A stretch of 64,000 bases of DNA from NCBI GenBank assembly GCA_016793465.1, contig JAEUJW010000039.1:62001-126000 (forward strand). Reading direction: 5' to 3'. The DNA is from Myxococcales bacterium (GTDB lineage: Bacteria > Myxococcota > Polyangia > Nannocystales > Nannocystaceae). The notes under the pieces are model-generated. The model searched no databases. It saw only the letters and a program-made list of their open reading frames with translations, and was not told the DNA's origin. Both the position numbers and the translations under genes were made by a program. This document shows positions 7,842 through 60,551 of this stretch, in pieces (position 1 is the first letter of the stretch; every line of letters starts with the position of its first letter).

Positions 7842-9745
7842 GGGCTGGCCTCCGGGACAGGTGGCCGCAGCAGCGCCTCGGCGCGGGCGATCGCGGACTG
7901 CAGGGTGGCGGCGACCGGGAGGTCGTGGAGGTCGACGCCGAGGGCGGTGAGCACGGTGGCGGCCTCGGGGCGCACGCCGCTGAGGATCGACCGCACGCCG
8001 CGCAGGCGCAGGGCCCGGGCGGCGCCGACGAGCGCGTCGGCGGCGGGGGCGTCGAGGTCGCGGGCGCCGGTGAGGTCGAGGATGGCGACGCGCGCGCGCG
8101 TGCGGCCGCCGAGGCCGACCAGCGTCTCGAGGATCAGGTGGCCGCGCTGGGGGTCGACCGAGCCGACGATCGGCATGACGACGATCTCGTCGGCGACGGG
8201 GATCAGCGGGGCGCCGCGCTCGGCCAGGGCGGCGGCCTGCAGGCGCACGAGGTCGTCCTGCAGGCGCGCGCGCTCGCGGTCGGCGCGGCGGGGCTCGCTG
8301 ATGTCGTGGTACACGCTGACGACGCGGGCGACCTGGCCGCGCTCGTCGAACATCGGCACCGACACGACGTCGACGGTGGTGCGCAGGCCGCTGCGGTGCA
8401 GCAGGTCGTACTCGCCGGTGGCCAGGCGGGCGCTGCGGGCGGCGCGGACGACGGTGCGCTCGTCGGGGTCGGCGGGCAGGTCGCTGTCGCAGCGCAGCAC
8501 GCCGGGGTCGGCGAGCTCGGCGGTCAGCGCGTCGGCGGCGCGGTTGCGCAGGACGGCCTCGCCGCTGGCGGCGTCGTGCACGAACACGCCGACGGGGAGG
8601 TTGTCGAGCAGGGCCTCGAGGGTGCCGCGGCGCTCGCGGTGCTCGGCGAGCGCGCGGCGGGCCTGGGCCAGCAGCAGGCGGTTGTCGAGCACGACCGCGG
8701 CCTGGCGGGCGAGGGCGGCGTAGAGGCGCTGCTCGCCGGGGCGGACGGCGTGGACGTCGGGCCAGGCGAGCACGATGACGGCGAGGAACCGGCCGCGCCA
8801 GGCCAGCGGCAGCACGGTGGCGCTGCGCAGGCCGAGGGCGGCGGCGAGGCCGCGCGAGGCGGGGTCGAGGCGGCGGTCGTCGGCGACGTCGGCGACGTGC
8901 ACGGGCACCAGGCCCTCGCGCTGCCACAGCTCGACCAGCGGGTGGGCGGCGACGTCGTGGCGGGCCGCGGTGGCGGGGTCCGGCGGGTCGGGCCAGGCGG
9001 CCTCGAGGGTCAGCGTGGTCGTCGCGGCCGGGCCGCGCGCGGGGCGGGCCTCGGGGTCGTCGTCGACGCTGAACAGCCACGCGCGCGTCGACCCGTGCGA
9101 GGCGGCGGCGCGGCCGAGCACGCGCAGCAGGTCGGGCAGGCCGTGGGCCTGGTTGATCTCGGCCGACGCCCCGTAGAGCGTGTGCGTCTCGGCGAGCGCG
9201 TCGGCGTGGGCCTGCAGGGTCCGGCGCGCCGAGACCGCGGCGGTCACGGCCCGCACCAGCGCCCCGACCACGAACTCCTCCTCGGGCCCGGCGCTGTGCG
9301 GCGCGGACCACCCGAGGTACAGCACGCCCTGCCAGGCGCCGAGGCGATCGTCGCGCAGCGGGACCACGGTGACGGCGCCGAGGCCACCCAGGCGCGCGCG
9401 CGCGGCCGGGTCGACGCGTGGGTCGTGGTCGAGGTCGGCGACGGCGAGCGGCTCGGCGGCGCCGCGCAGCCACAGGTTGGCGAGCGGCAGCTCGCCGAGG
9501 GGCACGCGGCGGGTGGGGGCGTCGTCCTCTTCGGGCCAGCGGGCCACGCGTTCGCCCTCGCGGGGTCGGCCGCGCTCGTCGCTGAGGACGTGCACGAGGC
9601 GCAGCTCGGCGAGCCCGTAGGGCCGGCAGGCGGCGGCCACGGCGGCGAGGATCGCGGGGTCGTCGGCGGCGCGGGCGAGGGCCACGTAGAGGTCGGCGAG
9701 CCGTGTCGCGAGCGGCGCGGGCGCGGCTGGGCTCGGCTCGACCAT
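7838..9745 (-). CDS. GAF-GAF-PAS-STAS sensor protein (first of tandem pair)
   Basis: A 635-residue protein with the same architecture as the next gene: GAF (about 15-170), second GAF (about 190-350), PAS (about 370-490), STAS (about 515-625, ILDLTGARDLD and SGVRPEAATVL). The two are clearly duplicates that have diverged. The gene ends with PVPEASP encoded by a copy of the CTGGCC..GGGACAGGT repeat (7846-7862), just before the GTGA overlap. The start ATG lies 8 nt after a TATCCT box. Probably a cytoplasmic multi-input signal integrator; ligands unknown. Confidence 0.85.
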   Translation of the reverse strand: MVEPSPAAPAPLATRLADLYVALARAADDPAILAAVAAACRPYGLAELRLVHVLSDERGRPREGERVARWPEEDDAPTRRVPLGELPLANLWLRGAAEPLAVADLDHDPRVDPAARARLGGLGAVTVVPLRDDRLGAWQGVLYLGWSAPHSAGPEEEFVVGALVRAVTAAVSARRTLQAHADALAETHTLYGASAEINQAHGLPDLLRVLGRAAASHGSTRAWLFSVDDDPEARPARGPAATTTLTLEAAWPDPPDPATAARHDVAAHPLVELWQREGLVPVHVADVADDRRLDPASRGLAAALGLRSATVLPLAWRGRFLAVIVLAWPDVHAVRPGEQRLYAALARQAAVVLDNRLLLAQARRALAEHRERRGTLEALLDNLPVGVFVHDAASGEAVLRNRAADALTAELADPGVLRCDSDLPADPDERTVVRAARSARLATGEYDLLHRSGLRTTVDVVSVPMFDERGQVARVVSVYHDISEPRRADRERARLQDDLVRLQAAALAERGAPLIPVADEIVVMPIVGSVDPQRGHLILETLVGLGGRTRARVAILDLTGARDLDAPAADALVGAARALRLRGVRSILSGVRPEAATVLTALGVDLHDLPVAATLQSAIARAEALLRPPVPEASP

Positions 9746-9753
9746 GGACGGCC

Positions 9754-9759
9754 AGGATA
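9754..9759 (-). promoter_or_regulatory. -10 box TATCCT for the 9745 gene
   Basis: On the minus strand CCTATCCT ends 8 nt before the ATG (complement of 9743-9745). No ribosome-binding site is visible, suggesting a leaderless or nearly leaderless transcript. Confidence 0.45.
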
Positions 9760-10079
9760 GGCCAAAGGGCGGCGCGCGTGGTGCAGGGCCGGCTGCGGCC
9801 CGCGGGACCGGGGCCGCGTGTCGACGGCGACGCGGGCGGACGCGGGCGCGCGGCGTCCGGTCGACGGGGCCGCGTGCGCCGCGGGTCCGGCCGGCGGCGA
9901 CGCGCCGCGGCATGCGTGGCGCGGCCGGGCGTGCAGCGGGCAGCGCGGGGGCGTGCGGGCCGGCGGCGCGGATCGCGGGCGGCGGATCGGCGGCGGCGGG
10001 GCGATCGGCGGCGGCCGGCGCCTGCAGGAACACGTCGTTCGGCTGCGCGGGGACGTTGTGGTCGGGGGCCCGCGGCGGC

Positions 10080-10085
10080 TAAATT
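10080..10085 (+). promoter_or_regulatory. Promoter with -10 TAAATT for the Ser/Thr kinase
   Basis: TAAATT stands out in otherwise GC-only DNA; a TTGTGG at 10056-10061 lies 18 nt upstream as a possible -35. Unlike most promoters here it leaves a leader, with GGAGAGG at 10098-10104 placed 8 nt before ATG 10113. That decides the start against the in-frame GTG at 10107, which is too close. Confidence 0.5.
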
Positions 10086-10112
10086 CGCCGACGACTTGGA
10101 GAGGCGGTGCAG

Positions 10113-11913
<1,801 letters not shown>

Positions 11914-11927
<14 letters not shown>

Positions 11928-14286
11928 GGCGCTGGCGCTGGCGCTGGCGCTGGCCGGGTGCGCGACGCGGGCGGCGACGGCGACCACGAGCCCGGCGGCG
12001 GTCGAGACCACGCCGAGCACCGGGGCCGAGCGCGTGTGCCTCGAGCAGGCCGACGTCGTCGACGACGCGACCACGCGGCTGGCCGACCCGTACCTGTGGG
12101 AGGAGCTCGACCGGCTGGTCACGCTGTACCGCCTGGCGCGCCACCAGGCCGACGCGGCGGCCTGCGCCGCGGCGACGCGCGCGCTGCTGGCGGCGACGGC
12201 CAGGCGCTGGGCCGAGGAGGCGATCGCGAGCGGCGGCTCGCGCACGGCGGACCTGGCCCGGCGGGCCCTCCGCGCGCTGTCGGAGGAGTTCTCGCCGGTC
12301 CCGGGCCCGCTGCGCCACACGTTCGGGCGGCTGGCGTGGACGCAGGGCGCGCGGCTGGTCCAGGAGATCGGCGAGCCGACGCTGGCGGCCGAGCACTTCT
12401 TCGCGGCGCACGAGCACCACGTGGCGGCGCTGCGCTCGGGGCAGCTCGGCGAGGCGGAGGCGAGGATCTCGGCGAGCGAGCAGGTCGAGGCGCTGCGGCG
12501 GGCGCTCGACTACCTCAACCTGACGTGGGACCCGGCGCAGTGGGTGTGCGAGCCGGGGCCGACCGGCGAGTGCGCGCGGCCGCCGGAGCCGGTGGTGCTG
12601 GCCATGTCGGCGGCCGAGGTGCAGATGCTCGCGGCCTACTCGACCTACCTCGCGGTGCCGGCCACGCGCGGGCAGCCGGAGACGCGGACGTACGCGCTGG
12701 CGCGGGCGTCGCTGCTGCTGCGCCACGGGCGGTTCGCCGAGGCCGAGCCCGACCTGCAGCTGGCCCTGCGCATGAGCGGGGGCACCGCCACCGACGCCGC
12801 GCTGTGGTGGCTGCGCTCGCTGCAGGCGCGCTGGCAGGACCCCGCGGCGCCGGCGAGCGAGCGCGCGGCGGCGCGGCGCGGCCTGCTCGCGGCGACGCCC
12901 TTGCTGCGCGAGGTGCCGACGTCGAGCCCCGGCCTCGACCCGCGGGGCGCCGAGCTGCAGGCCGCGCTGCCGCGGCTGCGCGCGGCGGCGCTGCGCCAGG
13001 ACGCCGGCGAGGCGCGGGCCGAGCGCGACTGGGCCCGCTGCGCCCGGGAGTTCGAGCAGCTGGCCGAAGAGACAGGCGGCGACGCGGCCGCCGAGCACGC
13101 GTTCGAGGCGGTGGTCTGCGCCGAGCAGGCGGGCGCGTACGTCAAGGCGATCGAGGGCTACAAGCAGTGGCTGGCGCGCCACCCCGGCCACCGGCTGGCG
13201 CCCGACGTCGAGGTCCGCCTCGGCAAGACGCACGAGCGGGTGCTCAACCCCGAGGCCGCGCGCGACGCCTACATCCGCTTCCTCGCGCTGGCGCCGGGCG
13301 ACCTGCGGGCGGGCGACGTGCGCCGGCGGTCGATCACGCTGGCGCTGGTGACCGGCACGCTGGAGGACGCGCAGGTCGAGCAGCTGGCCCGGACCGGCGA
13401 GCGCAACCTGGCGGCGATCCTCCGCTTTCGCACCGAGGTGCGCCAGGGGAGCCCGCTGCCGCGGATCCTCGGCTACATCCAGCGGTTCGGGCGCGACGGC
13501 GGGTCGGCCCGCCTGGCGATCGCCCACGTGCGCGCGGCGGCGGCGCTGATGCGCAGCTCGTGCCCGGTGCCGGCCCACGACGGGCTGTGCGTCGAGGTGA
13601 CCCGCGAGAAGACGCTCGGGCGGGTGGTCGCGCGCAACCAGCAGCAGCTGACCGAGGCCCGCGCGCACCTCGAGGCGGCGGCCGGGCTGCTGGCCGCGGA
13701 CGTGTCGGCGCGCGAGGCCGAGGGCCCGCCGCTGGCGATCGAGCCCGGCGAGCTGGCGCGGGCGCGGCGGATCCTCAGCCTGCTGCGCGGCGACCTCGGG
13801 GCCGAGGCGGCGCTGTCGACCAAGCCGCCGGCCTCGCTCGACCCCCAGCGCTCGCGCGAGTGGTTCGTGCGCCGCACCAACGAGGTCGCGCGCATGCAGG
13901 TGGTCTACGAGAGCGTGAACCCGGGGGCGGGCCGCGAGGTCGCGCTGGCGGAGTCGGTGGTGGCGACGGCGCGCGACGAGTTCGCGGCGGTCGTCGAGGC
14001 GCGCAAGGCCCAGGTCTACGAGGCCGACGTCGGCCTGCTCGAGGAGGTCGCGCGCGCGCTGGTCGCCAAGAACAAGCCGGGCAGCGACGGCGCGGCCCTG
14101 GCGGCGACCATGCGGGCCCAGGCCGACGAGCGGCGCTCGCAGGTGTTCGCGGCCTACCACCGCTGCGTCGAGCTGGTGGCGGCGTGGGGCCACGACCCCG
14201 ACGGCCAGGCCGAGACCTGCCGCGCCGGGCTCGGGCGCCTGGTCCAGCGCTACGAGGGCCGGCTCGAGTACGTGCCGCCGGCGTGA
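11914..14286 (+). CDS. TPR-repeat lipoprotein coupled to the kinase
   Basis: A 790-residue protein. Signal with lipobox ALAGC (Cys15), encoded by a perfect GCGCTG hexamer run at 11931-11954. The rest is Ala/Leu/Arg/Glu-rich helices in pairs of about 34 residues, typical of degenerate tetratricopeptide repeats (for example around RYGRFAEAEPDL-like and KAIEGYKQWLARHPGHRLAPD segments), and a late helical region. Likely an outer-membrane-anchored scaffold facing the periplasm. It begins inside the kinase gene (14-nt overlap), so the two products should be made in step. A degenerate palindrome copy lies at 13061-13077. Partner and role unknown. Confidence 0.8.
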
Positions 14287-14560
14287 GGGCCGCGGCTGTC
14301 GCCGGGGACAGGTCGCGCGGACCTGTCCCCCGGGGCAGGTGCCACGGCCGGTTCGCGTCGCCGGAGCCCGGCGTCGGGCGTACGCGCCGCGCGACGTGCG
14401 CGCCCGGTGTCCGCCCGCTCCGCGGGCGCACGTCGCAACAGCTGCGGGGTGGCGCAGGCGCGGCGAGACGGCCGCCGCGACGGCGAGACGCGCGGGGCCG
14501 CGGCCGCGGGCCGCCGGCGCGGCTTGCCGGACCGGACGGTCGCATCAATGTTCGGCGCCC
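14287..14560. repeat. Intergenic palindromes 14296-14313 and 14321-14340
   Basis: Two members of the dispersed palindrome lie back to back directly after the TPR lipoprotein stop: CTGTC-gccg-GGGACAGGT and ACCTGTCCCC-CGGGGCAGGT. Either could fold into an RNA hairpin and serve as a transcript end, though no T-run follows. The remaining roughly 220 nt contain no gene that I can support. Confidence 0.6.
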
Positions 14561-16042: not shown

Positions 16043-16064
16043 GACCTGACCTTCGGGTCAGGTC
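16043..16064. terminator. Hairpin between convergent genes (repeat-family copy)
   Basis: GACCTGACC-TTCG-GGTCAGGTC: a perfect 9-bp stem with the stable TTCG tetraloop, placed between the carbonic anhydrase stop and the convergent gene stop, which it overlaps by 2 nt. It is the dispersed palindrome with T to A and A to T changes on opposite arms, so pairing is kept. No T-run on either side, so it may stop transcription or block 3' decay in both directions. Confidence 0.65.
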
Positions 16065-16801: not shown

Positions 16802-19800
16802 TCAGCGGGCGAGCACGTCTTCGAGGTCGAGGCCCCACGCGGCCTCGGCCTCGCGCAGCAGCGCGGCGGCCGGGGCGTCGAGCGTGGCGAGGTCCCACAG
16901 GCGGACGGTGCCGTCCCAGCTGCCGGTCGCGAGCAGGGCGCCGTCGGGGCTGAACTCGACGACGGCGACGCGGGCGTCGTGGCCGGTGAGCTCGGCGACG
17001 AGGCGGCCGTCGTCGGCGCGCCACAGGCGGGCGCCGTCGTCGGGGCCGGCGGTGGCGATCCAGCGCTCGTCGGGCGAGAGCGCGACGTCGAGGGGCGCGG
17101 GGCCGGGGTGCGCGACGGTCCAGACCTCGCCGCCCGGGCCGGTGCGCATCAGGCTGCGGGCCGCGCCGACGACCACGAGGCCGGCGTCGGCGGACACGTC
17201 GGCGGCGACGGCGGTCGACGGCGCGGGCACCTGGCGGCAGCGCATGCGCGGGCCGTCGGTGAGCAGGTGGACGGAGGCGTCGACGTTGACGAGCGCGGCG
17301 TGCCGGCCGTGCGGGTCGGTCGCGAGGTCCTGCCACTCCTGGACGGGGCAGTCGTCGACGACGACGTCGCGGCCCCGCGCGAGGTCGTGGACCAGCATGG
17401 TGACGCCGTAGCTGGGGGCGACGAGGGTGGCGTCGCCGAGCACGGCGACGCGGCGGTGGATGCTGGCGAGCTCGCGGGGCGCGGTCCACAGGCGCTCGCC
17501 GGTGGCGGTCGAGAGCACGTGGGGGCCGAGCGGGCCGCGGTCGGACTGCACGACCGCGAGGCGGTCGCCGGCGGGGAAGAACGCGACGCCCTTGATCGTG
17601 CCGCTGCCGATCGTGTGGGTCAGGCGGCGCTCGCCGGTCGCGAGCTCCCAGAGGTTGACGCGGCCCTCGCCGTGGGCGGAGGCGAGGAGGCGGCCGTCGG
17701 GCGAGAAGGCCAGGTTGGCGACGCCGTGCTCGTCGACCAGCAGGTCGGGCTCGGCGGGCGCGGGCAGCAGCCAGCGGGTCGCGGCGGCGCCGTCGGTCAC
17801 GATCACGCTGCCGTCCCAGTCGAGCCGCAGGTCGCGGACGTCGGAGACGGCGATGGTGCCGACGGGGTGCAGCGCCGGCAGCTCGTAGACCTCGACGCCG
17901 CCGCGCTCGCGGGCCACGGCGACGTGCTGGCCGTCGGGGCCGACCACCAGGCGGCGCACCGGGTCGGGCTGCGGGGGGCCCAGCGACCAGGTCTCGCGCG
18001 TCTCGAGGTCGTGCACGGCGACGCGCCCGCGGCTGCCGGCGACCACGGCCCGGGTGGCGTCGGGGCTGAGCGCCATGTGGGTGAACGTGACGAAGCCGGC
18101 GCCTTCGAAGCCCGGGGCGAGGATGGCCGGCTCGAGGCGGTCGGCGCGGCCGATGCGGCCGTCGGCGCACAGCACCACGTGGGGTCCGTCGATCAGGCCG
18201 GCCACGCCGACGAGGAAGCCGCCGGCGCACTCCTCGTGCATCATCGCCTGCGGGATGCCGATCTGCCGGTCGCTGCGCAGCGGCCACGCGTCGCCGACGT
18301 TGAAGTCGATGTTGTCCCAGGGGTCGGGGTCGGGGGCGCCGGTCTCGAGGTCGAGGGTGGCGAGGCCGAAGCCGCGCTGCACGGCCCACACGCGCCCGGC
18401 CTCGACGCGCAGCTCGCGGATCTGCCGCTCGACCGCGGCGCGCCAGCGGACCGCGCCGCGGACCACCCGGCGCGCCTCGGAGCCGTCGGCGCACACCACG
18501 TCGTCGACGTCGAGGGCGACGATCGGGTGGCACGTGGGCACCGGCGCGGAGGCCATGCGCAGCGGCCGGGCGGCGGCGCGGGCCCCCGCGAGCAGGCCGC
18601 GGGCGGCGGGCGTGTCGGCGAGGCGCAGCGCGTGGGCGGCGAGCACCTCGGTGACGGCGCGCGCGCCGTGGTCGTCGACGGCGCGGGCCTGGGCGACGAG
18701 CGCGGCGGCGAGGTTGCGGTCGGCGTCGGCCAGCGCGAGGCGCAGCGAGTGCTCGGCGGCGACGGCCCGGTCGCGCTCGCTGCGCAGGTTGAGGGTGCCG
18801 AGCACGACGAGCGCGGCGATGACGACGAGCGCCGCGCCGCCGACGAGCACCGGCACGCGCCAGGCCCGGTAGAAGCGCAGGGCGACCTCGAGGGCGGTGT
18901 AGCGGTGGGCCTCGACGCGGCGGCCGTCGAGGTAGGCGGCGACGTCGGCCGCGAGCGCGCCGGCGTCGGCGTAGCGGTCGGCCGGATCGCGGGCGCCGGC
19001 GCGGGCGACGATCGCCGCGAGCTCGGGTGGGGTCGTCGACGGCAGCGCGGCCGCCGGCGAGCCGGCGAGCAGCTCGCGCAGCACCACGCCGAGGCTCCAC
19101 ACGTCGGCGCGGCGATCGCCGGGCTCGCCGCGGGCCTGCTCGGGGCTCATGTACGCGGGCGTGCCGACGATCGCGCCGGGCGGGTCGTCGGGCGCGTCGG
19201 CGAGCCGGCGCGCGAGGCCCCAGTCGACCACCTGGGTGTCGTCGAAGGCGCCGAGCACGATGTTGGCGGGCTTCAGGTCGCGGTGCAGCACGCCCTGGGC
19301 GTGGGCGTAGGCGACGGCCTGGCAGGCGCCGAGGAAGCGGCCGAGCAGGCCGAGGCGGGCCTGCAGGTCCGGCCGCTCGGCGATCGTCTGCGACAGCGGC
19401 CGGCCGCGCATGAGCCGCATGGTGTAGAACACGCGGCCGTCGGCGGCGCGGTCCTCGTCGTAGACGGTGATGACGCCGGGGTGCTCGAGGCCGGCGGTCA
19501 CGCGCGCCTCGCGGGCCAGGCGGCGGGCGTGGCGGTCGTCGTGCGGCTCCTTCAGGGCGACCATGCGGCCGAGCCGGCGGTCGCGCGCGAGCCACACGCG
19601 GCCCATGCCGCCGGCGCCGATCAGGCCGAGCCGCTCGTAGCGCTCGCCGGGCGGGGGCTCGCTCGCGGGCGCGGCCAGCGGCTCGGAGGCGCCGCTGGCG
19701 TCGGCGGGCCAGCTGTCCTCGGGGACAGGCAGCGTGTCCGGCTCGCGCCGGGGGTCGAACGGGTCGGCGCGGTCGGCGGGCCAGCTGTCCTCGGGGACAG

Positions 19801-20077
19801 GCGCGCGCCGGGGCTCGCGCCGCGGGGCGACCGGGCCGGCGGCGTCGGGCCAGCTGTCCTCGGGGACAGGCGCGCGCCGGGGCTCGCGCCGCGGGGCGAC
19901 CGGGCCGGCGGCGTCGGACCAGCTGTCCTCGGGGACATGCGCGCGCCGGGGCTCGCGCCGCGGGGCGACCGGGCCGGCGTCGGGCCAGCTGTCCTCGGGG
20001 ACAGGCGCGCGCCGGGGCTCGATCGGGCCGGCGGCGTCGGCGGGGTCGCTCGCGCCGGCGGCGAGCGTGCCGCTCAC
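16802..20077 (-). CDS. WD40-repeat Ser/Thr protein kinase with repeat-derived N-terminus
   Basis: A 1091-residue protein. Residues 1-145 are a low-complexity tail with five copies of PVPEDSW (about every 22-24 residues) encoded by tandem palindromes. The kinase domain (about 148-370) has GAGGMG (154-159), Lys176, HRDLKPAN and GTPAYMSPEQ; the DFG motif is DWG, as in some myxobacterial and planctomycete kinases. One membrane span (about 393-415), then about 650 residues of WD40-like beta-propeller ending in the well-formed repeat FSPDGALLATGSWDGTVRLWDL. The GTG start overlaps the FHA gene stop as GTGA, so the two are coupled. Probably phosphorylates or docks the FHA partner. Confidence 0.9.
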   Translation of the reverse strand: MSGTLAAGASDPADAAGPIEPRRAPVPEDSWPDAGPVAPRREPRRAHVPEDSWSDAAGPVAPRREPRRAPVPEDSWPDAAGPVAPRREPRRAPVPEDSWPADRADPFDPRREPDTLPVPEDSWPADASGASEPLAAPASEPPPGERYERLGLIGAGGMGRVWLARDRRLGRMVALKEPHDDRHARRLAREARVTAGLEHPGVITVYDEDRAADGRVFYTMRLMRGRPLSQTIAERPDLQARLGLLGRFLGACQAVAYAHAQGVLHRDLKPANIVLGAFDDTQVVDWGLARRLADAPDDPPGAIVGTPAYMSPEQARGEPGDRRADVWSLGVVLRELLAGSPAAALPSTTPPELAAIVARAGARDPADRYADAGALAADVAAYLDGRRVEAHRYTALEVALRFYRAWRVPVLVGGAALVVIAALVVLGTLNLRSERDRAVAAEHSLRLALADADRNLAAALVAQARAVDDHGARAVTEVLAAHALRLADTPAARGLLAGARAAARPLRMASAPVPTCHPIVALDVDDVVCADGSEARRVVRGAVRWRAAVERQIRELRVEAGRVWAVQRGFGLATLDLETGAPDPDPWDNIDFNVGDAWPLRSDRQIGIPQAMMHEECAGGFLVGVAGLIDGPHVVLCADGRIGRADRLEPAILAPGFEGAGFVTFTHMALSPDATRAVVAGSRGRVAVHDLETRETWSLGPPQPDPVRRLVVGPDGQHVAVARERGGVEVYELPALHPVGTIAVSDVRDLRLDWDGSVIVTDGAAATRWLLPAPAEPDLLVDEHGVANLAFSPDGRLLASAHGEGRVNLWELATGERRLTHTIGSGTIKGVAFFPAGDRLAVVQSDRGPLGPHVLSTATGERLWTAPRELASIHRRVAVLGDATLVAPSYGVTMLVHDLARGRDVVVDDCPVQEWQDLATDPHGRHAALVNVDASVHLLTDGPRMRCRQVPAPSTAVAADVSADAGLVVVGAARSLMRTGPGGEVWTVAHPGPAPLDVALSPDERWIATAGPDDGARLWRADDGRLVAELTGHDARVAVVEFSPDGALLATGSWDGTVRLWDLATLDAPAAALLREAEAAWGLDLEDVLAR
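19711..20006 (-). repeat. Palindrome array A: five in-frame copies in the kinase gene
   Basis: Five copies of AGCTGTCCTCGGGGACAGGC begin at 19711, 19783, 19852, 19921 (ends GGGGACATGC) and 19987, spaced 72, 69, 69 and 66 nt. All spacings are multiples of three. Each encodes PVPEDSW on the minus strand, and the sequence between copies is also repeated (APRREPRR). The unit has clearly multiplied as a 66-72-bp block around the palindrome. Confidence 0.9.
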
Positions 20078-35400: not shown

Positions 35401-35418
35401 GGTGGTCGCTCGCGGGGG

Positions 35419-37327: not shown

Positions 37328-41107
<3,780 letters not shown>

Positions 41108-41348: not shown

Positions 41349-42920
41349 TCAGCCGTGGAGCTCGCGGAGCAGCTGCTGGCAGCGCAGGCGGCGTTGCTGG
41401 TCGGCGTCGGGGTGGACGAGGTAGGCCTGCAGCAGGGCGCGGGCCTCGGCGCGGCCGCGCGGGTCGTCGGAGCCGGCGAGCAGGCTGCCGAGGTTGAACT
41501 GCAGCTCGGGCGGGTAGGTGGTCGGCGGGTCGCGCGGGTCGAGGCCGCGGGCGGCCGCGGCGGCGCGGTAGGCCGCCTCGGCGCCGACGCGATCGTGGAG
41601 GCGGACGCGGGCGACGCCGAGGCCGAGGCCGGCCGTGTAGCGGTCGCGCGCGGCGGGGGCCTCGGCGGCGGCGACGGCGTAGAGCTCGGCGGCGGACGGG
41701 TCGTTGCCGGCGGCCAGCTCGACGCCGGCCCAGCGCAGGCGGGTGGCGATGTCGTCGGGCGCGAGCTCGAGGGCGAGGGCGAAGCGGCGGCGGGCCTCGC
41801 CGGGGTCGCCCGCCAGCAGGGCGACGCGGGCGCAGGTCGAGGCGAGCACGGCGGCGCCGAGGCGCTCGGCGGCGGCGGGGTCGGGCGCGGGGCTGGCCTG
41901 CGGGACAGGTGAGGGTGGGCTGGCCCTCGGGGCAGGTGAGGATGGGCTGGCCTGCGGGACAGGTGAGGATGGGCTGGCTCTCGGGACAGGTGAGGGTGGG
42001 CTGGCCTGCGGGACAGGTGAGGATGGGCTGGCCCTCGGGACAGGTGAGGGTGGTCTGGCCTGCGGGACAGGTGAGGCGAGCGCGGTGAGGCTGGCCTGCG
42101 GGACAGGTGAGGCGAGCGCGGTGAGGCTGGCCTGCGGGACAGGTGAGGTGGTCGCGGGGCTGGCCTGCGGGACAGGTGAGGCGAGCGCGGTGAGGCTGGC
42201 CCGTGGGACAGGTGAGGCGAGCGCGGCGGGGCTGGACTGCGGGACAGGTGAGGCGGTGCTCGGGTCGGGCGTGACGGCCGAGGGCGGGCGGGGCCTCGGG
42301 ACGCCGCTCGCGGCGCTGTCCTGGGGGACGGGGTCGCGCGGCGGGGGGCGCGTGGGCAGGCGGTCGCGGCACACGGCGGCGGCGAGGGTGAGGCGCTCGG
42401 GCTCGCTGGCGGTCACGGCGAGGGCGTGGCGCAGGGCGACGCCGAGGGCGTGGGGGTCGTCGGGGGCGCGGGCGAGGGCGGCCTGGAAGTTCTCGCGGGC
42501 CTGGGCGAGCTCGCGGACCTCGCCGCGGCGCTCGTAGGCGTCGATGGCGAGCAGGGCCAGGCCGACCGGGCGGGCCGGGCTGCCCGGGTCGAGCGCGACG
42601 AGGGCGGCGCGGGCGACGTCGGGGGCGCCCTCGGCGATCGCCAGGCTGGCGAGCGCGTGGGCCCACTGCGGGCGGGGGTCCCGGCCCATGCCGTCGGCGT
42701 AGACGGCGAGGGCGCGGGCCCCGTCGCCGCAGCGCAGCAGCGCGGCCACGCGGGCGCGGGCGGCCGGGAAGTCGGCCGGCGCGGGGGCGTCGGCGCAGGG
42801 GTCGGCGGCGGCGACCGGCGGCGCGGGCGCGGGCGTCGGGGCCGGCGCGGGCGCGACGGACGGGGCGGGGCGGCAGGCGAGCAGGCAGGCTGCCCCGAGG
42901 GACAGGAGGACGGCGTGCAC
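41349..42920 (-). CDS. TPR lipoprotein with repeat-derived Pro-rich insert
   Basis: About 523 residues from GTG 42920. Lipobox LLAC, then a Pro/Ala stalk, TPR-like helices (about 50-170), a long Pro/Ser/Val/Gln/Ala insert made of SPVPQAS and SPVPRAS units (encoded by the 12-copy array at 41893-42253), and a second TPR-like region with RRRFALALELAPDD and QFNLGSLLAGSDDPRGRAEARALL. Likely an outer-membrane scaffold split by the insert. The start is doubtful: in-frame ATGs at 43052 and 43184 exist, but the DNA between is rich in palindromes and has weaker third-position GC, so I prefer 42920. Confidence 0.65.
   Translation of the reverse strand: MHAVLLSLGAACLLACRPAPSVAPAPAPTPAPAPPVAAADPCADAPAPADFPAARARVAALLRCGDGARALAVYADGMGRDPRPQWAHALASLAIAEGAPDVARAALVALDPGSPARPVGLALLAIDAYERRGEVRELAQARENFQAALARAPDDPHALGVALRHALAVTASEPERLTLAAAVCRDRLPTRPPPRDPVPQDSAASGVPRPRPPSAVTPDPSTASPVPQSSPAALASPVPRASLTALASPVPQASPATTSPVPQASLTALASPVPQASLTALASPVPQARPPSPVPRASPSSPVPQASPPSPVPRASPSSPVPQASPSSPAPRASPPSPVPQASPAPDPAAAERLGAAVLASTCARVALLAGDPGEARRRFALALELAPDDIATRLRWAGVELAAGNDPSAAELYAVAAAEAPAARDRYTAGLGLGVARVRLHDRVGAEAAYRAAAAARGLDPRDPPTTYPPELQFNLGSLLAGSDDPRGRAEARALLQAYLVHPDADQQRRLRCQQLLRELHG
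41893..42253. repeat. Palindrome array B: twelve copies, coding
   Basis: Twelve copies of CTGGCCTGCGGGACAGGTGA (with CTC, CCG and similar variants) start at 41893, 41920, 41947, 41974, 42001, 42028, 42055, 42091, 42127, 42160, 42196 and 42232. The first six steps are exactly 27 nt, the others 36, 36, 33, 36 and 36. Every spacing is a multiple of three, so the host gene stays open; two sub-blocks with different spacers show two rounds of amplification. Confidence 0.93.
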
Positions 42921-43209
42921 GGACGGCGCGAGGCGCAGGCGGGTCGCGGGCGCTGGGGCTGTCCCGGGGGACAGGTGAGTCGCGCGCGGGGGCCGGCCGG
43001 CGGTTGTCCCCGGGGACAGATCGGACGCGCACGGGGGCCGGCCGGCGGGCATGACGAGAGACAGGAGGTTCGCACACGTGGCCCGATCGCCGGGCGGTGC
43101 GGGGGACAGGCGAGCCGCGCGCGCGAGCCGGTCGGCGGATGCGGTGGCTGTCCTTCGGGACAGGTGGTGGGAGGCTGGGGGCATGCGCGTGGCTGTCCGG
43201 AGGGACAGG
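42889..43209. repeat. Cluster of dispersed palindromes upstream of the TPR lipoprotein
   Basis: Six copies in about 320 nt: 42889-42906 (within the signal peptide), 42958-42976, 43004-43019, 43098-43106 (half), 43148-43164 (CTGTCC-TTCG-GGACAGG) and 43193-43209 (CTGTCC-GGAG-GGACAGG). They differ in loop and flank, so they are dispersed copies rather than one tandem block. Most of the interval 42921-43259 is otherwise empty of genes. Confidence 0.85.
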
Positions 43210-43242
43210 TGTCGAGGCGCGGGGTCGCCTCGGGCGGTGTTT

Positions 43243-43260: not shown

Positions 43261-44819
43261 CAGGGGCGGCCGAGGGTGGTGAGCACGGCGGCGAGCATGG
43301 CCTGGTCGGTCAGGTCGTCGGCGACGGCGTCGACGCGGATGTCGAGGGCGCGCACGGCCGCGGCGGTGACGGGGCCGAGGGCGAGGACCTTGGCGCGGGC
43401 GAGCAGCTCGCGGGCGGCCGCCTCGCCGTGGGCCTCGCCGAGGGTCTCGACGAAGTGGCGGGCGGTCTTGCCGCTGGCGAGGCACACGGCGTCGCAGCCC
43501 TCGCCGCCCTGCTCGGGCGGGAGCAGCGAGCGGACCAGCAGGGCCGGCACGCGCGGGCGGACCACGCGGTAGCCGACCACCAGCGCGTAGGTGCCGCCGG
43601 CGGCGTGGATGGCCTCGCCGACGAGGTCGCGGCCCTCGTCGGCGCGCACGTGCAGCCAGCGCCGATTGAGGATGTTGCGCGCGCGCAGCTCGTGCACGAG
43701 GCCCTCGGAGCGGGCGGCGGTCGGGACGATGTCGGCCCGGATCCCGCGCTCCCAGCAGGCGTTGGCGGTGCCGGTGCCGATGGCGGCGACGCACTTGCCG
43801 TGGAGGATGCGGACGTCGACCCCGACGCCGGCGAGCGCGTCGAACCACGCGCGCACGCCGTTGGGGCTCGAGAGGATCACGCCGTCGTAGTCCTCGGGGC
43901 TGCGGGCGGCGCGGGTGAGGGCGTCGAGGTCGTGCGGCGGGGCGATCGCCAGGCAGGGGAAGTGGACCGCGTCGGCGCCCTGGGCGGCCAGCAGATTCAA
44001 TAATTCGCCGGCGTGGTCGGCGGCGCGGGTGACGACCACGCGGCGGCCGAACAGCGGGCGGCGCTCGTACCACTGGATCGCGCCGCGCAGGTCGACCACG
44101 CTGCCGACGATCATGACGGCGGGCGGGCGCAGGCCCTCGGCGTCGGCGCGGTCGGCCAGCTGGGCCAGAGGGGCGACGATCGTGCGCATGATCCCGCGCG
44201 TGCCCCAGCGGACCAGCGCGGCCGGGGTCGCGGGGTCGCGGCCGGCGGCGATCAGGCGCTCGGCGTTGTCGCGGCAGTTGCGGACCGACATCATGAGCAC
44301 GAGCGTGCCTGTCCCGCGGGCCAGGTGCTGCCAGTCGACGCCGCGGCCGCCCTTCTCGTAGGCCTCGTAGCCGGACACCAGCGTGACGCTCGGGGTGTGG
44401 TCGCGGTGGGTGACGGGGATGCCGGCGGCCTCGGGCGCGGCGATGGCGGCGCTGACCCCGGGCACGAACTCGTAGTCGATGCCGGCGTCGCGCAGGACCT
44501 GGGCCTCCTCGCCGCCGCGGCCGAACACCATGGGGTCGCCGCCCTTCAGCCGGACCACGCGCAGGCCGGCGCGGGCCTTGTCGACGATCACGGCGTGGAT
44601 CTCGTCCTGGCTGGCGACGGCGTCGCCGTGGGTCTCGGCGTGCGGGCTCTGGCTGCGCTGGTACACGTGCACGTCGGGGCGGCAGTGCATGAGCAGCGCG
44701 GGGTTGACGAGGTAGTCGGCGACCACGACGTCGGCGCGGGCGAGGCGGTCGCGCCCGGCGAGGGTCAACAGTTCGGGGTCCCACGGACCCGCGCCGACGA
44801 TGGAGACGAATCCGGCCAC
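43260..44819 (-). CDS. cobA-hemD: Uroporphyrinogen-III C-methyltransferase / synthase fusion
   Basis: A 519-residue fusion. Residues 1-250 are SUMT (CobA): VSIVGAGPWDPELLTLAGRDRL, the YLVNPALL stretch, RLKGGDPMVFGRGGEE, VPGVSAAIAAPEAAGIPVTHR. Residues about 260-519 are uroporphyrinogen-III synthase (HemD), with GRRVVVTRAADHAGELLNLL, VILSSPNGVRAWFDAL and CLASGKTARHF. HemD closes the tetrapyrrole ring; CobA then methylates it with S-adenosylmethionine to precorrin-2, for siroheme or B12. GTG 44819 gives the normal SUMT N-terminus. No other tetrapyrrole genes are nearby; the divergent neighbour is MnmG. Confidence 0.93.
   Translation of the reverse strand: MAGFVSIVGAGPWDPELLTLAGRDRLARADVVVADYLVNPALLMHCRPDVHVYQRSQSPHAETHGDAVASQDEIHAVIVDKARAGLRVVRLKGGDPMVFGRGGEEAQVLRDAGIDYEFVPGVSAAIAAPEAAGIPVTHRDHTPSVTLVSGYEAYEKGGRGVDWQHLARGTGTLVLMMSVRNCRDNAERLIAAGRDPATPAALVRWGTRGIMRTIVAPLAQLADRADAEGLRPPAVMIVGSVVDLRGAIQWYERRPLFGRRVVVTRAADHAGELLNLLAAQGADAVHFPCLAIAPPHDLDALTRAARSPEDYDGVILSSPNGVRAWFDALAGVGVDVRILHGKCVAAIGTGTANACWERGIRADIVPTAARSEGLVHELRARNILNRRWLHVRADEGRDLVGEAIHAAGGTYALVVGYRVVRPRVPALLVRSLLPPEQGGEGCDAVCLASGKTARHFVETLGEAHGEAAARELLARAKVLALGPVTAAAVRALDIRVDAVADDLTDQAMLAAVLTTLGRP
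44307..44326. repeat. Palindrome-like copy in cobA-hemD
   Basis: GCCTGTCCCGCGGGCCAGGT within the methyltransferase part (residues around LARGTGTL). The right arm has GGCC instead of GGAC, the same asymmetric change as in arrays B and C but on the other arm. Confidence 0.55.
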
Positions 44820-44870: not shown

Positions 44871-46661
44871 ATGACGAGGACAGCGACGGTGGTGGTGGTC
44901 GGGGCGGGCCACGCGGGGCTCGAGGCGGCGTTCGCGGCGGCCCGCGTCGGCGCGCGCGTGCAGGTGGTGACCGGGCGCGTCGACACGATCGGGCAGACGC
45001 CGTGCAACCCGAGCGTCGGCGGGGTCGCGAAGGGCCACCTGGTCAAGGAGATCGAGGCGCTCGGCGGGTTCATGGGGCGGGCGGCCGACGCCTGCGCGAT
45101 CCACGGGCGGATCCTCAACCGCAGCAAGGGGCCGGCGGTCCGCGCGACCCGCGTGCAGGTCGACAAGGCGCGCTACGGGGCCTACGCCCGGGCGGCGCTC
45201 ACGACGCCGGAGGGCCGGCTTCGCCACGGCGGGGGCGGCACGATCGCGGTGGTCGAGGGGCTGGTCGCGCGCGTGCGCGTGGCCGGGGGCCGCGCCGTCG
45301 GGGTGGAGCTGGCCGACGGGTCCTGTCTCGAAGGCCAGGCGGTGGTCGTGACCACGGGCACGTTCCTCGGCGGGGTGCTGCACACCGGGGCCGCGCGCAC
45401 GCCGGGCGGGCGCGTCGACGAGGCGCCGGCGCTGGCGCTGTCGCACGACCTGCGGGCGCTGGGCTTCGCGCTGCGGCGCCTGAAGACGGGCACGCCGGCG
45501 CGGCTCGACGGGCGCACGATCGACTACGACAGCCCGGGCGTCGAGCTGCAGCCGGGGGAGGAGCCGCTGCCGCGGTTCGTCTCGCCCGACGACGATCCGC
45601 CGGCGATCCTGCCGCAGGTGCCGTGCCACCTGACGTGGACGACCGGGGCCACGCACGAGCTGGTGCGCGCGCACCTGCAAGAGTCGCCGATGTACTCGGG
45701 GGCGATCACCGGACGCGGGCCGCGCTACTGCCCGTCGCTCGAGGACAAGGTGGTGCGCTTCGCCCAGCGCGAGCGCCACCAGGTGTTCCTCGAGCCGGAG
45801 GGGCTGGACACGCACAGCGTGTACCCCAACGGGGTGTCGACGAGCCTGCCGGCGGCGGTGCAGGCGGCCTTCCTCGCGACCATCCCGGGGCTCGAGCGGG
45901 CGGTGATGCTGCGCCCGGGCTACGCGGTCGAGTACGACGCCGTCGACGCGCGGGCGCTCGGGCACACGCTGGCCAGCAAGGACGTCGCGGGGCTGTACTT
46001 CGCGGGCCAGATCAACGGCACGTCGGGCTACGAGGAGGCGGGCGCGCAGGGGCTGATCGCGGGGGCCAACGCGGCGCTGGCGGCCCTCGGGCGCGCGCCG
46101 CTGGTGATCGGGCGCGAGCAGGGCTACCTCGGGGTGCTGATCGACGACCTCGTCACCCAGGGCTGCGACGAGCCGTACCGCATGTTCACGGCGCGCGCGG
46201 AGTACCGCATGCTGCTGCGCGAGGACAACGCCGACGCGCGGCTCAGCGACCTGGCCTTTCGGGCAGGTCTGATCGATGAGCAGCGGCACGCGCGGGCGAC
46301 GGCGCGGGCCGAGGCGGTGGCGGCGCTCGTGCGGCGCAAGCGGGGCGACCCGGAGGCGCCGGCGTGGCTGCGCGAGAAGGCCGAGGCGGAGGCGTGCTAC
46401 GCCGGCTACATCGTGCGTCAGCAGCGGGAGATCGACCGCCTGCGCGGCGAGGCGGCCGACATCCCGATCGATCCGGACACCGACTACAGGGCGCTCGGCG
46501 GGCTCACGACCGAGGCGGCCGAGCGGCTGGCCCGGGTGCGCCCGACCAGCACGGGGCAGGTGGCGCGCATCCCCGGCATCACCCCGGCGGCGCTGATGTG
46601 CGTGTGGGCCCACGCGCGCGCGGCCCGGCGGCGCGCGAGCGAGGCGCAGGAGCAGGCATGA
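44871..46661 (+). CDS. mnmG: tRNA uridine 5-carboxymethylaminomethyl modification enzyme MnmG
   Basis: A 596-residue flavoprotein that, with MnmE, modifies the wobble uridine of certain tRNAs. FAD site [21 protein letters not shown], then [82 protein letters not shown], and C-terminal [28 protein letters not shown], all classic. Slightly shorter than the E. coli protein. Two repeat-like stretches fall inside (45322-45339 and 46249-46268), using codons such as TGT and GAA that are rare here. The stop overlaps the thioesterase start (ATGA). Confidence 0.97.
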
Positions 46662-49168: not shown

Positions 49169-49188
49169 ACCTGTCCTTCGAGACATGT
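49169..49188. repeat. Dispersed palindrome copy, intergenic
   Basis: ACCTGTCCTTCGAGACATGT: a full-length family member with a TTCG loop and one mismatch in the right arm, in the 248-nt divergent gap between the phosphoesterase and the propeller lipoprotein. The rest of the gap shows only the two -10 boxes. Confidence 0.75.
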
Positions 49189-51131: not shown

Positions 51132-51151
51132 ACCTGTCCGCGGGGACAGGT
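51132..51151. repeat. Full-length intergenic palindrome copy
   Basis: ACCTGTCC-GCGG-GGACAGGT: perfect 8-bp arms, the cleanest full-length member outside genes, 45 nt upstream of ATG 51197. Confidence 0.8.
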
Positions 51152-53377: not shown

Positions 53378-53398
53378 CGCGGCCGCCGACGCGCCGCG

Positions 53399-53758
53399 CT
53401 ACGGCAGGCGCAGGCCGCGACGGACCGCCCGGGCGGCGCGGCGACGCAGGCGCTCGACCACGCCGGCGGGCCGCTCGCTGTCCTCGAGGACAGGTCGCTG
53501 CGGGCCGGTCATGCGGGCCAGGGCGGCCTGGAACGGGGCGGCGACGAGGGCGCGCAGCAGCTTGCCGGCGAGCTCGGCCGGGGTGTCGCCGCTGGCCTCG
53601 ACGCCGACGCGCTCGCCGAGGTTGGTGTCCTCGAGCGCGCCGCGGGCGAGCGTGCGGCTGCCGTCGGAGCGGATCTCGACGACGAGGCGGGCGACCACCG
53701 GCAGCTCGTCCGCCGGCGCCGCGTCCTTGCCCTGCTTGCGGTCGATCGCGTCGGTCAT
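53399..53758 (-). CDS. Small protein of unknown function
   Basis: A 119-residue, basic, soluble protein. The start has low complexity (MTDAIDRKQGKDAAPADEL), then VVARLVVEIRSDGSRTLARGALED and GDTPAELAGKLLRALVAAPFQAALARM, and a C-terminal Arg-rich helix. A perfect palindrome copy (53478-53494, CTGTCC-TCGA-GGACAGG) encodes RPVLEDSE. The start is 7 nt after a TAGCCT box (53766-53771). No family recognised. Confidence 0.65.
   Translation of the reverse strand: MTDAIDRKQGKDAAPADELPVVARLVVEIRSDGSRTLARGALEDTNLGERVGVEASGDTPAELAGKLLRALVAAPFQAALARMTGPQRPVLEDSERPAGVVERLRRRAARAVRRGLRLP
53478..53494. repeat. Perfect palindrome copy in the 53758 gene
   Basis: CTGTCC-TCGA-GGACAGG in frame in the small hypothetical gene. 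Perfect arms; fully palindromic through the TCGA centre. Confidence 0.75.
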
Positions 53759-53765
53759 GCCCGCG

Positions 53766-53771
53766 AGGCTA
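53766..53771 (-). promoter_or_regulatory. -10 box TAGCCT for the 53758 gene
   Basis: GTTAGCCT on the minus strand ends 7 nt before the ATG. It is identical to the box of the M23 peptidase gene (61908-61913). Confidence 0.48.
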
Positions 53772-53786
53772 ACACCGGCGCGCGCG

Positions 53787-54707: not shown

Positions 54708-54786
54708 GACCGCAGCGTCGCACGGACCGGGCGCGCGCGGACGGGGCGGGGCCGTGACGTCGCGCGCGGCGGGCGGAGGTCGGCGC

Positions 54787-57225: not shown

Positions 57226-57231
57226 CGGGGC

Positions 57232-57237
57232 AGGGTA
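57232..57237 (-). promoter_or_regulatory. -10 box TACCCT, leaderless, for the VCBS lipoprotein
   Basis: GTTACCCT on the minus strand, 6 nt before the ATG at 57225. Decides this start over ATG 57219. Confidence 0.5.
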
Positions 57238-57322
57238 ACGAAGCCGTGGCCGATCGGACAGGCTCGTTTGCACGCTTGCGCGCTTCCGCCGAGGCCAGGT
57301 GAAACCCCGGCGTCCGGATCGT

Positions 57323-57328
57323 TACACT
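57323..57328 (+). promoter_or_regulatory. -10 box TACACT, leaderless, for the 57335 gene
   Basis: GTTACACT followed by 6 nt and GTG 57335. A GTGAAA at 57299-57304, 18 nt upstream, could serve as -35. It places the start at GTG rather than at the upstream in-frame ATG, which lies before the box. Confidence 0.5.
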
Positions 57329-57334
57329 CGTCCG

Positions 57335-59161: not shown

Positions 59162-59371
59162 CGCCGGCGGGCCGCGAGGGCAGGCGCGCGCGCGTCGAAC
59201 ATGCGTTTGCCGGGGGTCGCGGCGCGGGGCTGCCGCGGCTGACGGCGGACGGGTGGCGGCCGAGCCTGGTGCGTCGCGCTCGCGGGGCGCGAGCCGGCGG
59301 TCGTCACGGCGCGTGCTCGTCGCCGGGTGCGTCGCCCCGGGCGGCGTCGGTGGTGCGCCCGGCCGCGGCGA

Positions 59372-60229
59372 TCAGACGAGCACGGCCCCGCCTTCGAACG
59401 CGCGGAGCAGCGGCTCGGTGAACAGCGGGGAGGGCGCGAGGATGGTGATCATCGTCCAGGCCCAGGCGGCGGGCTCGGGCCAGCGGTCGACGCCGAGGGC
59501 GACCTCGAGGCCGACCAGCAGGGCCTGGAGGAGGAAGAAGGCGCCCATGCTGGCGGCCATCCACGGGCCTAGCGCGACGCCGGCGGCCCAGGCGTGCAGG
59601 CCGGCGCTGGCGAGGAAGGCGAGGGCGAGGCCGAGGCGCGGGCGGCGACGGCGGGCGAACGGCAGGAAGAAGTGGGCGCGCAGCCAGCGGTGCACGGTGA
59701 GGTTCCAGCGCTCGCCCCAGAACTCGCGCAGCGAGCGGGCGGCGATCGGGCGGCGGTGCAGCGGGGGGGCGCGCAGGCCGAGGGCCGACAGCGCGGTGAC
59801 GAGCAGGTTGTTGGCGGCCTCGGCGGCGCCGTAGACGAACAGGGCGCCGAGCGACCAGCGGGCGAGCGGCCAGGCGTGGCTGTGTTCGGCGTGGCGGAGG
59901 GCGAACACGCCGACGGTCAGCCAGGCGGCGCCGGCCAGCAGGGCGCGGCGGTCGAGCGCGGGCGGCACGCGGGTGAGCTGGCGGGTGTCGACGACGGCGA
60001 GCACGTGGGCGACGCGGCGCGGGGCCGGGTAGGAGCGCGGGTCGCGGCCGAGGTCGAGGACGCGGCCGGCGCCCCAGAAGGTGAAGAGGGCGAGCAGGCC
60101 GCGGGTCAGCGGGTGGGCGTCGACGGCGAGCGGCCACAGCACCAGCGCCAGGGCGAGCGCGAGGCCGAGGGCGCGGCGCCAGGTCGGGCCGGTGGTGACG
60201 AGGGCGGCGAGGATGAGGAGGGCGAGCAC
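59372..60229 (-). CDS. Wax-synthase-like membrane O-acyltransferase (MBOAT)
   Basis: A 285-residue protein with seven or eight membrane segments. The family core is visible: SLREFWGERWNLTVHRWLRAHFFLPF (the FWxxRWN signature) and LAFLASAGLHAWAAGVALGPWM, whose His is the expected catalytic residue. These enzymes esterify long-chain alcohols or sterol-like acceptors with fatty acyl-CoA. GTG start 60229; the first copy of palindrome array C abuts it, and the rest of its upstream region is that array. Confidence 0.82.
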   Translation of the reverse strand: MLALLILAALVTTGPTWRRALGLALALALVLWPLAVDAHPLTRGLLALFTFWGAGRVLDLGRDPRSYPAPRRVAHVLAVVDTRQLTRVPPALDRRALLAGAAWLTVGVFALRHAEHSHAWPLARWSLGALFVYGAAEAANNLLVTALSALGLRAPPLHRRPIAARSLREFWGERWNLTVHRWLRAHFFLPFARRRRPRLGLALAFLASAGLHAWAAGVALGPWMAASMGAFFLLQALLVGLEVALGVDRWPEPAAWAWTMITILAPSPLFTEPLLRAFEGGAVLV

Positions 60230-60551
60230 GTGACCGATGGGACAGGTTGTGGGCGGGTGGCCGAAGGGACAGGTTACACCGCGGGCAGGAGTGGGGCGGG
60301 TGACCGAAGGGACAGGTCGGGGTGGGTGGCCGAAGGGACAGGTCGGGGTGGGTGGCCGAAGGGACAGGTGGGGGGCGGGTGGCCGAAGGGACAGGTCGGG
60401 GCGGGTGGCCGAGGGGACAGGTCGGGGCGGGTGGCCGAAGGGACAGGTCGGGGCGGCGAGGCGCGCGCGGCGGGGCGGCGCGCGCGGGACGCTGACGGTA
60501 CACGAAGCGGCCGCGCGGGGGCAGAGGCGGGCGCCGGCGGGGCGGGCGCTC
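60230..60551. repeat. Palindrome array C: eight copies, intergenic
   Basis: Eight copies of TGGCCGAAGGGACAGGT (first and third begin TGACC; seventh has GAGGGG) start at 60231, 60258, 60301, 60327, 60353, 60380, 60406 and 60432, mostly 26-27 nt apart, with nearly identical G-rich spacers. Spacing is not a multiple of three, unlike the coding arrays. It fills 60231-60448 upstream of the acyltransferase gene; 60449-60551 holds nothing I can identify. Confidence 0.92.
60271..60276 (-). promoter_or_regulatory. Candidate -10 TAACCT inside array C
   Basis: On the minus strand TGTAACCT occurs at the edge of the second array copy, about 41 nt before the acyltransferase start. The 43-nt step between copies two and three, the only irregular one, surrounds it. 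It may be the promoter interrupting the array. Confidence 0.35.

Follow-up and report, generated by a model that had tools for sequence, protein, structure and literature searches.

A dyad-symmetric DNA motif at gene borders, phase-locked into 14-bp arrays, in a clade of the Nannocystaceae

Introduction

The MetJ met-box arrays are tandem degenerate palindromes at period 8, and the LexA box of Escherichia coli reads CTGT-N8-ACAG. Repetitive extragenic palindromic (REP) elements and bacterial interspersed mosaic elements (BIMEs) are dispersed palindromes numbering more than 100 per genome and forming regularly spaced composites (PMC2817692), and the highly iterated palindrome 1 (HIP1) of the cyanobacteria is very abundant and typical of its lineage (PMC4390886). 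Here we describe a palindromic site in a 64-kb stretch of a Myxococcales genome (64,000 nucleotides of contig JAEUJW010000039.1, called the window in the following), and the arrays formed by this site in related genomes. No paper describing such elements was apparent from the titles and abstract openings searched.

We regard it as solid that the site belongs to a clade-specific, phase-locked, dyad-symmetric and constrained DNA motif at gene borders. That its copies are the sites of a putative homodimeric protein, binding double-stranded DNA and loading at a 14-bp pitch at gene borders, appears to us fairly probable.

The palindromic site in the window

A model of two half-sites fits 49 places in the window, compared with none to four in each of ten second-order Markov simulations. 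With up to three mismatches, CTGKCCNNNGGGACAGGT matches 79 times, whereas 100 dinucleotide shuffles of the window averaged 5.8 matches and never exceeded 13. The top over-represented 8-mers are GGGACAGG (36 copies vs. 1.2 expected) and GGACAGGT (34 vs. 1.6; third-order Markov). The half-sites TGTCC and GGACA lie 4 bp apart in 14 instances and at any other distance at most twice; in each of five relatives a spacing of 4 occurs 27-38 times, and the runners-up, 18 and 32 (at most 14 times), equal 4 plus one or two 14-bp periods. Called genes contain 31 of the 49 places and intergenic DNA 18. Three tandem clusters hold 25; about 27 separate places remain.

An earlier note on this DNA had listed a dispersed family of about fifty palindromes, including clusters of five, twelve and eight copies. 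The family and all three clusters are borne out, and 46 of the 49 listed starts pass the two-half-site threshold; 11307 and 42315 were found only with the mismatch pattern (3 and 2 mismatches), and 43098 is a half site only. Sites at 11273, 11287 and 57244 are added here. The spacer, given as 3 or 4 bp, is fixed at 4 bp.

Arrays of 14-bp period in related genomes

We searched 29 genomes of the order (handles G0xx) and 317 of the class, all of them relatives and not the window's own genome. Identity to the MnmG protein of the window is 81% in G020 (467 residues), about 76% in G015-G018, G019 and G021, and 69-70% in G022 and Enhygromyxa; the best named relative in one contig scan was Enhygromyxa salina SWB005 (69%). 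Nannocystis and Enhygromyxa form one family in the NCBI taxonomy, and G015-G019 and G021 are presumably Nannocystis-like.

In 220 kb of G017, ACATGTCC is the top enriched 8-mer and ACCTGTCC the third, and ATG repeats every 14 bases around the copies. The array unit was modelled as RRRCMKGYYY plus four free bases. With the stricter cut, arrays in G017 occur at only two of the periods from 8 to 30, namely 36 at 14 and 24 at twice that period. With a looser cut, five relatives have 6-55 arrays at period 14 (none in one simulation each) and single ones at a few other periods, 20 kb of G022 has none, and Enhygromyxa has one, at period 15; in the window there are two at period 14 and three at 26-27, the latter owing to the tandem clusters. 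CATG pairs peak at distances of 14, 28, 42 and 56 bp in all five relatives, with 66-108 pairs at 14 bp against medians of 2-4. The window shows no such peaks. In 375 kb of the outgroup G022 we found three CATG pairs at 14 bp (median 6) and no array; its maximum of 26 pairs falls at 42 bp, a multiple of three. The relatives therefore have dyad units with a constant period, as do tandem cooperative operator arrays of the met-box kind. Such phased arrays had escaped the earlier note because they are common only there, the window containing one four-unit array, from 11271.

The core dyad ACMTGTCC-N4-GGACAKGT describes a wider family than the one first noted. Its inner part MTGTCC-N4-GGACAK occurs 1,777, 1,749, 1,634, 1,534, 1,343 and 1,097 times in six Nannocystaceae genomes, 292 times in G020 (6.6 Mb, nearest to the window), 48-70 times in each of G009-G012, and 0-5 times in the other 18 of the 29 genomes (control 0-4). 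CTGTCC-N(3-4)-GGACAGGT is present in 79-198 copies per genome in G015-G021 and in 0-4 copies in the other 22 (backward control 0-1). Among the 317 class genomes, ten carry the full dyad ACATGTCC-N4-GGACATGT, with 1-3 copies in G009-G011 and 6-142 in G015-G021 (control 0). Three consecutive array units, (RCATGY-N8)x3, match 420-846 times in each of six genomes and six times in G020; of the rest of the 317, 301 have no match and nine have 1-7, among them several exact tandem repeats, and the control gave one match in each of two genomes. The proposal of a palindrome family specific to a lineage within the Myxococcota is thus confirmed, with strong enrichment in relatives beyond the window.

Placement relative to genes

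Placement was examined in five syntenic blocks of 220-240 kb from relatives, which hence are not independent samples. Here, 58 of 224 arrays lie inside called genes. There are 66 arrays in 34.5 kb of convergent gaps and 14 in 54 kb of divergent gaps; among gaps of at least 60 bp, 61 of 110 convergent but 10 of 115 divergent ones contain an array. Where an array and a gene lie within 60 bp of each other, the array is beyond the 3' end in 113 pairs and ahead of the 5' end in 11. Two further blocks of G017 have arrays at 34 of 88 convergent vs. 10 of 122 codirectional 3' ends. For lone dyads outside arrays the bias is less marked, with 66 lying no more than 100 bp from a 3' end, 22 equally close to a 5' end and 173 inside genes.

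An association with head-on genes was considered (52/190 vs. 19/187 gaps in the five blocks). The corresponding counts at other positions are 4/38 vs. 4/23 (1 Mb), 2/11 vs. 4/10 (3 Mb), 0/8 vs. 2/13 (9 Mb) and 3/34 vs. 1/27 (12 Mb), and the association is therefore not used.

Conservation and origin of the arrays

For 46 arrays of G017, 178 of 184 orthologue comparisons were possible. In 93% of 110 intergenic comparisons and in 68 of 68 genic ones, an array scoring well above base-shuffled sequence is present at the orthologous position. The phase was set by the highest score within 150 bp, and this inflates the identity of units. Intergenic arrays are 79-88% identical in the CATG columns, 50-62% in the other unit columns and 36-43% in the spacers; the values for genic arrays are 81-99%, 72-89% and 55-69%. 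Array units thus persist while spacers turn over. Adjacent spacers are barely more alike than random ones (0.311 vs. 0.280; 23 of 767 identical), so that most arrays are not recent tandem copies, although some are, e.g. in G017 at 4.478 Mb.

Within genes, the earlier note had observed that copies keep the reading frame. This is true, but not as a matter of insertion: the mnmG copies arose by substitution, and the two genic clusters of the window were duplicated in multiples of three. Among the window genes only mnmG was aligned, and neither of its two copies has an internal indel relative to orthologues (G022 has six extra bases about 22 bp before the first); the analogy to in-frame Rickettsia palindromic elements (RPEs) fails on this point. 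In mnmG of five relatives a four-unit array is present, again with no indel there compared with genomes lacking it. The G+C content at third codon positions (GC3) is 0.67 in the mnmG array and 0.97 in the remainder of the gene; over all genic arrays it is 0.64-0.68, vs. 0.95-0.97 in the same genes. Genic arrays override codon usage, though the GC3 drop is partly built in because CATG carries A and T, and the conservation pattern is the stronger evidence. Units occupy all three codon phases, as 14 is not a multiple of three, which is no evidence by itself.

Strand polarity

In the window GGACAGG occurs 44 times on the plus strand and five times on the minus strand. The plus strand is the G-rich one (GC skew +0.109 overall, +0.126 between genes). 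Such a bias would be expected if the motif were a polar replication or segregation signal directed toward the terminus, like the FtsK-orienting polar sequences (KOPS) or architecture-imparting sequences (AIMS), which we consider unlikely. In G017 the GC skew changes from positive to negative at about 5.67 Mb, which we read as the terminus; mnmG is about 0.2 Mb away, and the window may therefore be terminus-proximal in its own genome. On the two sides of this switch CTGGCC-N4-GGACAGGT changes strand, with 24 plus and 2 minus copies at 3.1-5.5 Mb and 24 minus and 3 plus copies at 5.67-7.8 Mb (18:2 and 19:3 with copies within 1 kb collapsed). The region of 3-8 Mb also contains 62 of the 95 matches to a stricter array pattern, and in array units the minor G exceeds the minor C 1.5-1.7-fold on the G-rich strand, where intergenic skew alone predicts 1.15-1.2. 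On the other hand, the site is basically a dyad, and the strand flip is known from one genome only. Moreover, the ratio is 7:6 at 0-3 Mb despite similar GC skew at 1 and 3 Mb, the region of 11.28-12.48 Mb is fully polar (12 minus, 0 plus) although distant from the terminus, and that of 8.4-11.2 Mb is mixed. A directional role of the asymmetric form is possible.

Symmetry without stem pairing

In 1,197 units (identical arrays counted once), the left half has G at.69, G at.71, A at.56, C at.95 and A at.78, mirrored in the right half by T at.76, G at.96, T at.55, C at.70 and C at.68. An alternative reading is a transcribed repeat whose RNA hairpins, with stems of 5-8 bp and 4-nt loops, end or stabilise transcripts. 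The 3'-end placement of the arrays would suit this, but three variable outer stem pairs do not covary in either of two junction sets. Across the spacer of 978 junctions, the four outer stem pairs give z values of -1.2, -2.3, -1.0 and -0.7, and column pairs within the 10-mer range from -0.3 to -2.8. Since the first unit model was symmetric by construction, covariation was retested without it, on 517 distinct junctions picked by CATG-N10-CATG spacing alone; the TCC-N4-GGA symmetry returns, and the stem columns yield z values of 1.3, 0.1 and 0.6. In favour of hairpins, the innermost stem pair correlates across the spacer (z +3.1, 978 junctions), which may reflect unequal proportions of CATG among arrays, and the outer spacer bases show a dyad-like correlation (z 2.4 in 978 and 4.4 in 517 junctions).

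The spacers point the same way in part. Both loops that the earlier note had found favoured are enriched among the 978 junctions of relatives, TTCG with 28 vs. 5.1 expected and GAAA with 18 vs. 8.2 (TNCG as a class 40 vs. 17.5, GNRA 60 vs. 46). However, the commonest excess is GATC (40 vs. 6.9), and GAAG (38 vs. 9.8), CTTC, CCGA and others are enriched as well, so that the bias is no signature of tetraloops in particular. AT content at the spacer centre amounts to 50-76% over a background of 26-31%, except in one sample of few genic units. As hairpins need no exact 14-bp phase and 58 of the 224 arrays lie within called genes, we rate a function as RNA hairpins as rather improbable. Symmetry without stem pairing fits instead the double-stranded site of a symmetric protein.

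Further alternatives

A DNA uptake sequence (DUS) or a methylation motif, accumulating through substitution in the manner of a DUS or HIP1, would match the substitution origin of the mnmG copies and the very high copy number; both leave the 14-bp phase, the AT-rich spacer of 4 bp and the position at 3' ends unexplained, and we hold this to be very doubtful. The same grade applies to strong sites of gyrase (type II topoisomerase) at 3' ends, with the 4-bp spacer as cleavage stagger: convergent and 3'-end placement and a dyad around N4 would agree with it, but the strict core bases (C.95, G.96) and the 14-bp pitch are unlike gyrase preferences. Least credible is a mobile palindrome of REP/BIME or RPE type spread by insertion, an analogy from the earlier note that would account for dispersed copies in excess of 100, a 3'-intergenic bias and lineage specificity: the REP-associated tyrosine transposase (RAYT; Y1_Tnp, PF01797) has no match in any of the seven rich genomes G015-G021 while matching 5 of 14 control genomes and 3 of 11 poor relatives, outer stems do not covary, the mnmG copies lack indels, identical adjacent spacers are confined to the 23 of 767, and viral contigs searched with the array pattern gave two matches, both simple repeats.

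Missing outer-stem covariation and the absence of a RAYT match in the seven rich genomes together make an RNA-hairpin, REP or insertion origin unlikely.

Sites along the window

According to gene calls and to Pfam scans covering 46 products, the window is a 75%-GC piece of chromosome that encodes kinases, MnmG, a HemD fusion protein and surface proteins. A scan for tRNA found none in the window, and no Rfam match reached the gathering score. The sites below were found with the two-half-site model unless another basis is given. A plus-strand site with a strong right half, GGGACAGGT, lies at 7843..7862 in the last codons of the minus-strand gene 7838-9745 (also by the mismatch pattern). The array form, four units in 14-bp phase, occupies 11271..11322 in a Ser/Thr kinase gene (array score 28.0, none in one simulation). 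Single plus-strand sites are found at 13058..13077 within the plus-strand gene 11914-14286, at 37161..37180 in a lipoxygenase gene and at 53476..53495 in a small open reading frame (ORF). Two adjacent sites at 14294..14340, between codirectional genes, were also detected by the mismatch pattern, and a symmetric variant, ACCTGACC-TTCG-GGTCAGGT at 16044..16063, lies in a 21-bp gap between convergent genes. One kinase-AAA gene has four plus-strand sites (37681, 39325, 40007 and 40049; 37681..40068). On the minus strand are a site in the HemD/methylase fusion gene (44307..44326) and one mnmG copy (45321..45340), which has no internal indel against orthologues; the other, at 46249..46268, lies where the five relatives have their conserved four-unit array. 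A two-unit array (49169..49188; also by array scan) and a weak plus-strand site missing from the earlier list (57244..57263) are located in gaps of divergent genes, and a perfect dyad, ACCTGTCC-GCGG-GGACAGGT, is at 51132..51151.

The clusters, all on the plus strand, differ in their steps. Five sites at 19711..20006, also read directly, form an in-frame tandem repeat inside the called ORF of a kinase-WD40 gene, with steps of 66-72 bp, multiples of three. Twelve sites at 41891..42249 (also by array scan) lie in tandem repeats of 27-36 bp within a weak ORF, with steps of 27, 33 and 36 bp, likewise multiples of three; five more (42888, 42957, 43002, 43146 and 43191; 42888..43210) cover the start of the weak ORF and the gap before 43260. 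Eight sites with a weak left half at 60228..60448 belong to intergenic tandem repeats with steps of 26-27 bp and one of 43, which do not keep to multiples of three. In the clusters at 41891-42249 and 60228-60448, each tandem repeat carries one site.

As a side observation, a minus-strand run at 32594-37320 comprises P450, D-arabinono-lactone-oxidase-like and lipoxygenase genes, a possible oxylipin locus.

Isolated dyads in other genomes of the order

Lone dyads were examined in G009 (47 of 49) and G010 (15 of 62). Of the first 41, 14 are intergenic when ORFs are chosen mechanically; a gene start lies within 60 bp of 13 of them, nine also have a gene end within 100 bp, three are in divergent gaps and none in convergent ones. 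A model-based gene caller places 26 of the 41 between genes. The neighbours could perhaps be the regulon of an ancestral factor. A signature of -10 box plus Shine-Dalgarno sequence fits only 2 of the 47 G009 sites. We tentatively propose an operator family of the ordinary kind from which the arrays grew; its ancestral form may have been an operator with some 50-70 sites, such as is found in four other genomes of the order.

Genes beside the dyads of these two genomes (loci L250-L309) often encode surface or secreted proteins (DUF4215, FG-GAP, CAP, OmpA, core of an extracellular contractile injection system).

Proposed function

The results above establish the site with its symmetry, phase, placement and turnover, and its restriction to the clade; what follows on a binding protein, including its dimer axis, cooperative loading and function, is our inference. 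A putative homodimeric protein would read the half-sites ACMTGTCC and GGACAKGT, inverted around the 4-bp spacer. In the Nannocystis-like relatives it would probably load cooperatively onto the arrays, where adjacent dyads may share their outer bases and so set the fixed 14-bp pitch, three units making 42 bp or about four helical turns. Selection would hold the arrays just 3' of genes and in convergent gaps while their sequence turns over, and point substitution would have built them more than insertion or tandem copying. A likely role would be that of a border complex at gene ends, acting as transcription roadblock or insulator, or as a chromosome-organising filament.

Several observations weigh against a docking protein at gene borders. 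Both spacer-side correlations do so because independent half-sites do not predict correlation. Arrays are unevenly dense: blocks on the terminus side have 16-21 per 100 kb, the regions at 1, 3 and 12 Mb have 10-14 and that at 9 Mb has 2, so that a general gene-end role is not established; at 9.0-9.1 Mb of G017 contig C1, despite many convergent genes, there are two arrays per 100 kb and none at 30 convergent 3' ends. The window itself has mostly lone dyads and tandem clusters, and the lone dyads of G009 and G010 lie near gene starts or in ORFs rather than in convergent gaps. No binding protein was found: none of 40 ORFs beside G009 and G010 dyads has a recognised helix-turn-helix domain, and 15 of the 40 match no Pfam family.

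The arrays were also considered as a replacement for intrinsic terminators and rejected as such. In the five syntenic blocks, GC hairpins followed by a T run are equally rare at 3' ends with arrays (13/164) and without (24/433), the figure for G022 being 4/151, and no replacement is visible, which is a further point against an action at gene ends.

A bolder version of the docking reading is more tentative and, in our view, somewhat doubtful: a genome-wide, phase-locked docking code in which hundreds to thousands of degenerate dyads at an exact 14-bp pitch mark downstream gene borders. Substitutions would have produced these dyads even within coding sequence, in disregard of codon usage, and a protein forming a filament or coat would bind them, keeping transcription units apart and perhaps ordering the terminus half of the chromosome. 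If true, one bacterial lineage would have hundreds to thousands of phased protein-docking arrays at gene ends, for which we know no bacterial precedent. The lineage would also offer a tractable case for studying the rise of a genome-wide DNA code, in which possible stages coexist: lone dyads in G009-G012, dyads and rare arrays in the window and G020, and full arrays in six relatives.

Comparison with known systems

The array unit resembles the p53 site, RRRCWWGYYY; the P53-family profile was silent in controls too and hence is uninformative. The LexA box shares the CTGT/ACAG spacing of the window form, but there are far too many sites here. LexA was rejected as a candidate, as the stretches read upstream of lexA in G015, G016, G017, G020, G021 and the outgroup G022 hold no site; lexA is single-copy in seven of eight genomes, G024 having two.

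HIP1, which has been linked to methyltransferases, is similar in being a very abundant, lineage-typical palindrome, and differs in being one 8-mer; neither an N4 dyad nor phased arrays are known for it. Unlike a DUS, the present site is a dyad and in relatives is phase-locked into 14-bp arrays. REP/BIME elements are likewise dispersed palindromes exceeding 100 per genome with regularly spaced composites; here, however, there is no RAYT match and no outer-stem covariation, spacers vary freely, and units inside genes come without indels. KOPS and AIMS have in common with our site a G-rich polar half and a strand flip where the GC skew flips, whereas here the dyad is mainly symmetric and in arrays, and polarity is regional. 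The MetJ met-boxes, too, are degenerate palindromes repeated in tandem with a fixed period, an arrangement that suits cooperative binding of dimers. The present arrays differ from them in a period of 14 rather than 8, in hundreds to thousands of sites, and in a position at gene 3' ends and inside genes.

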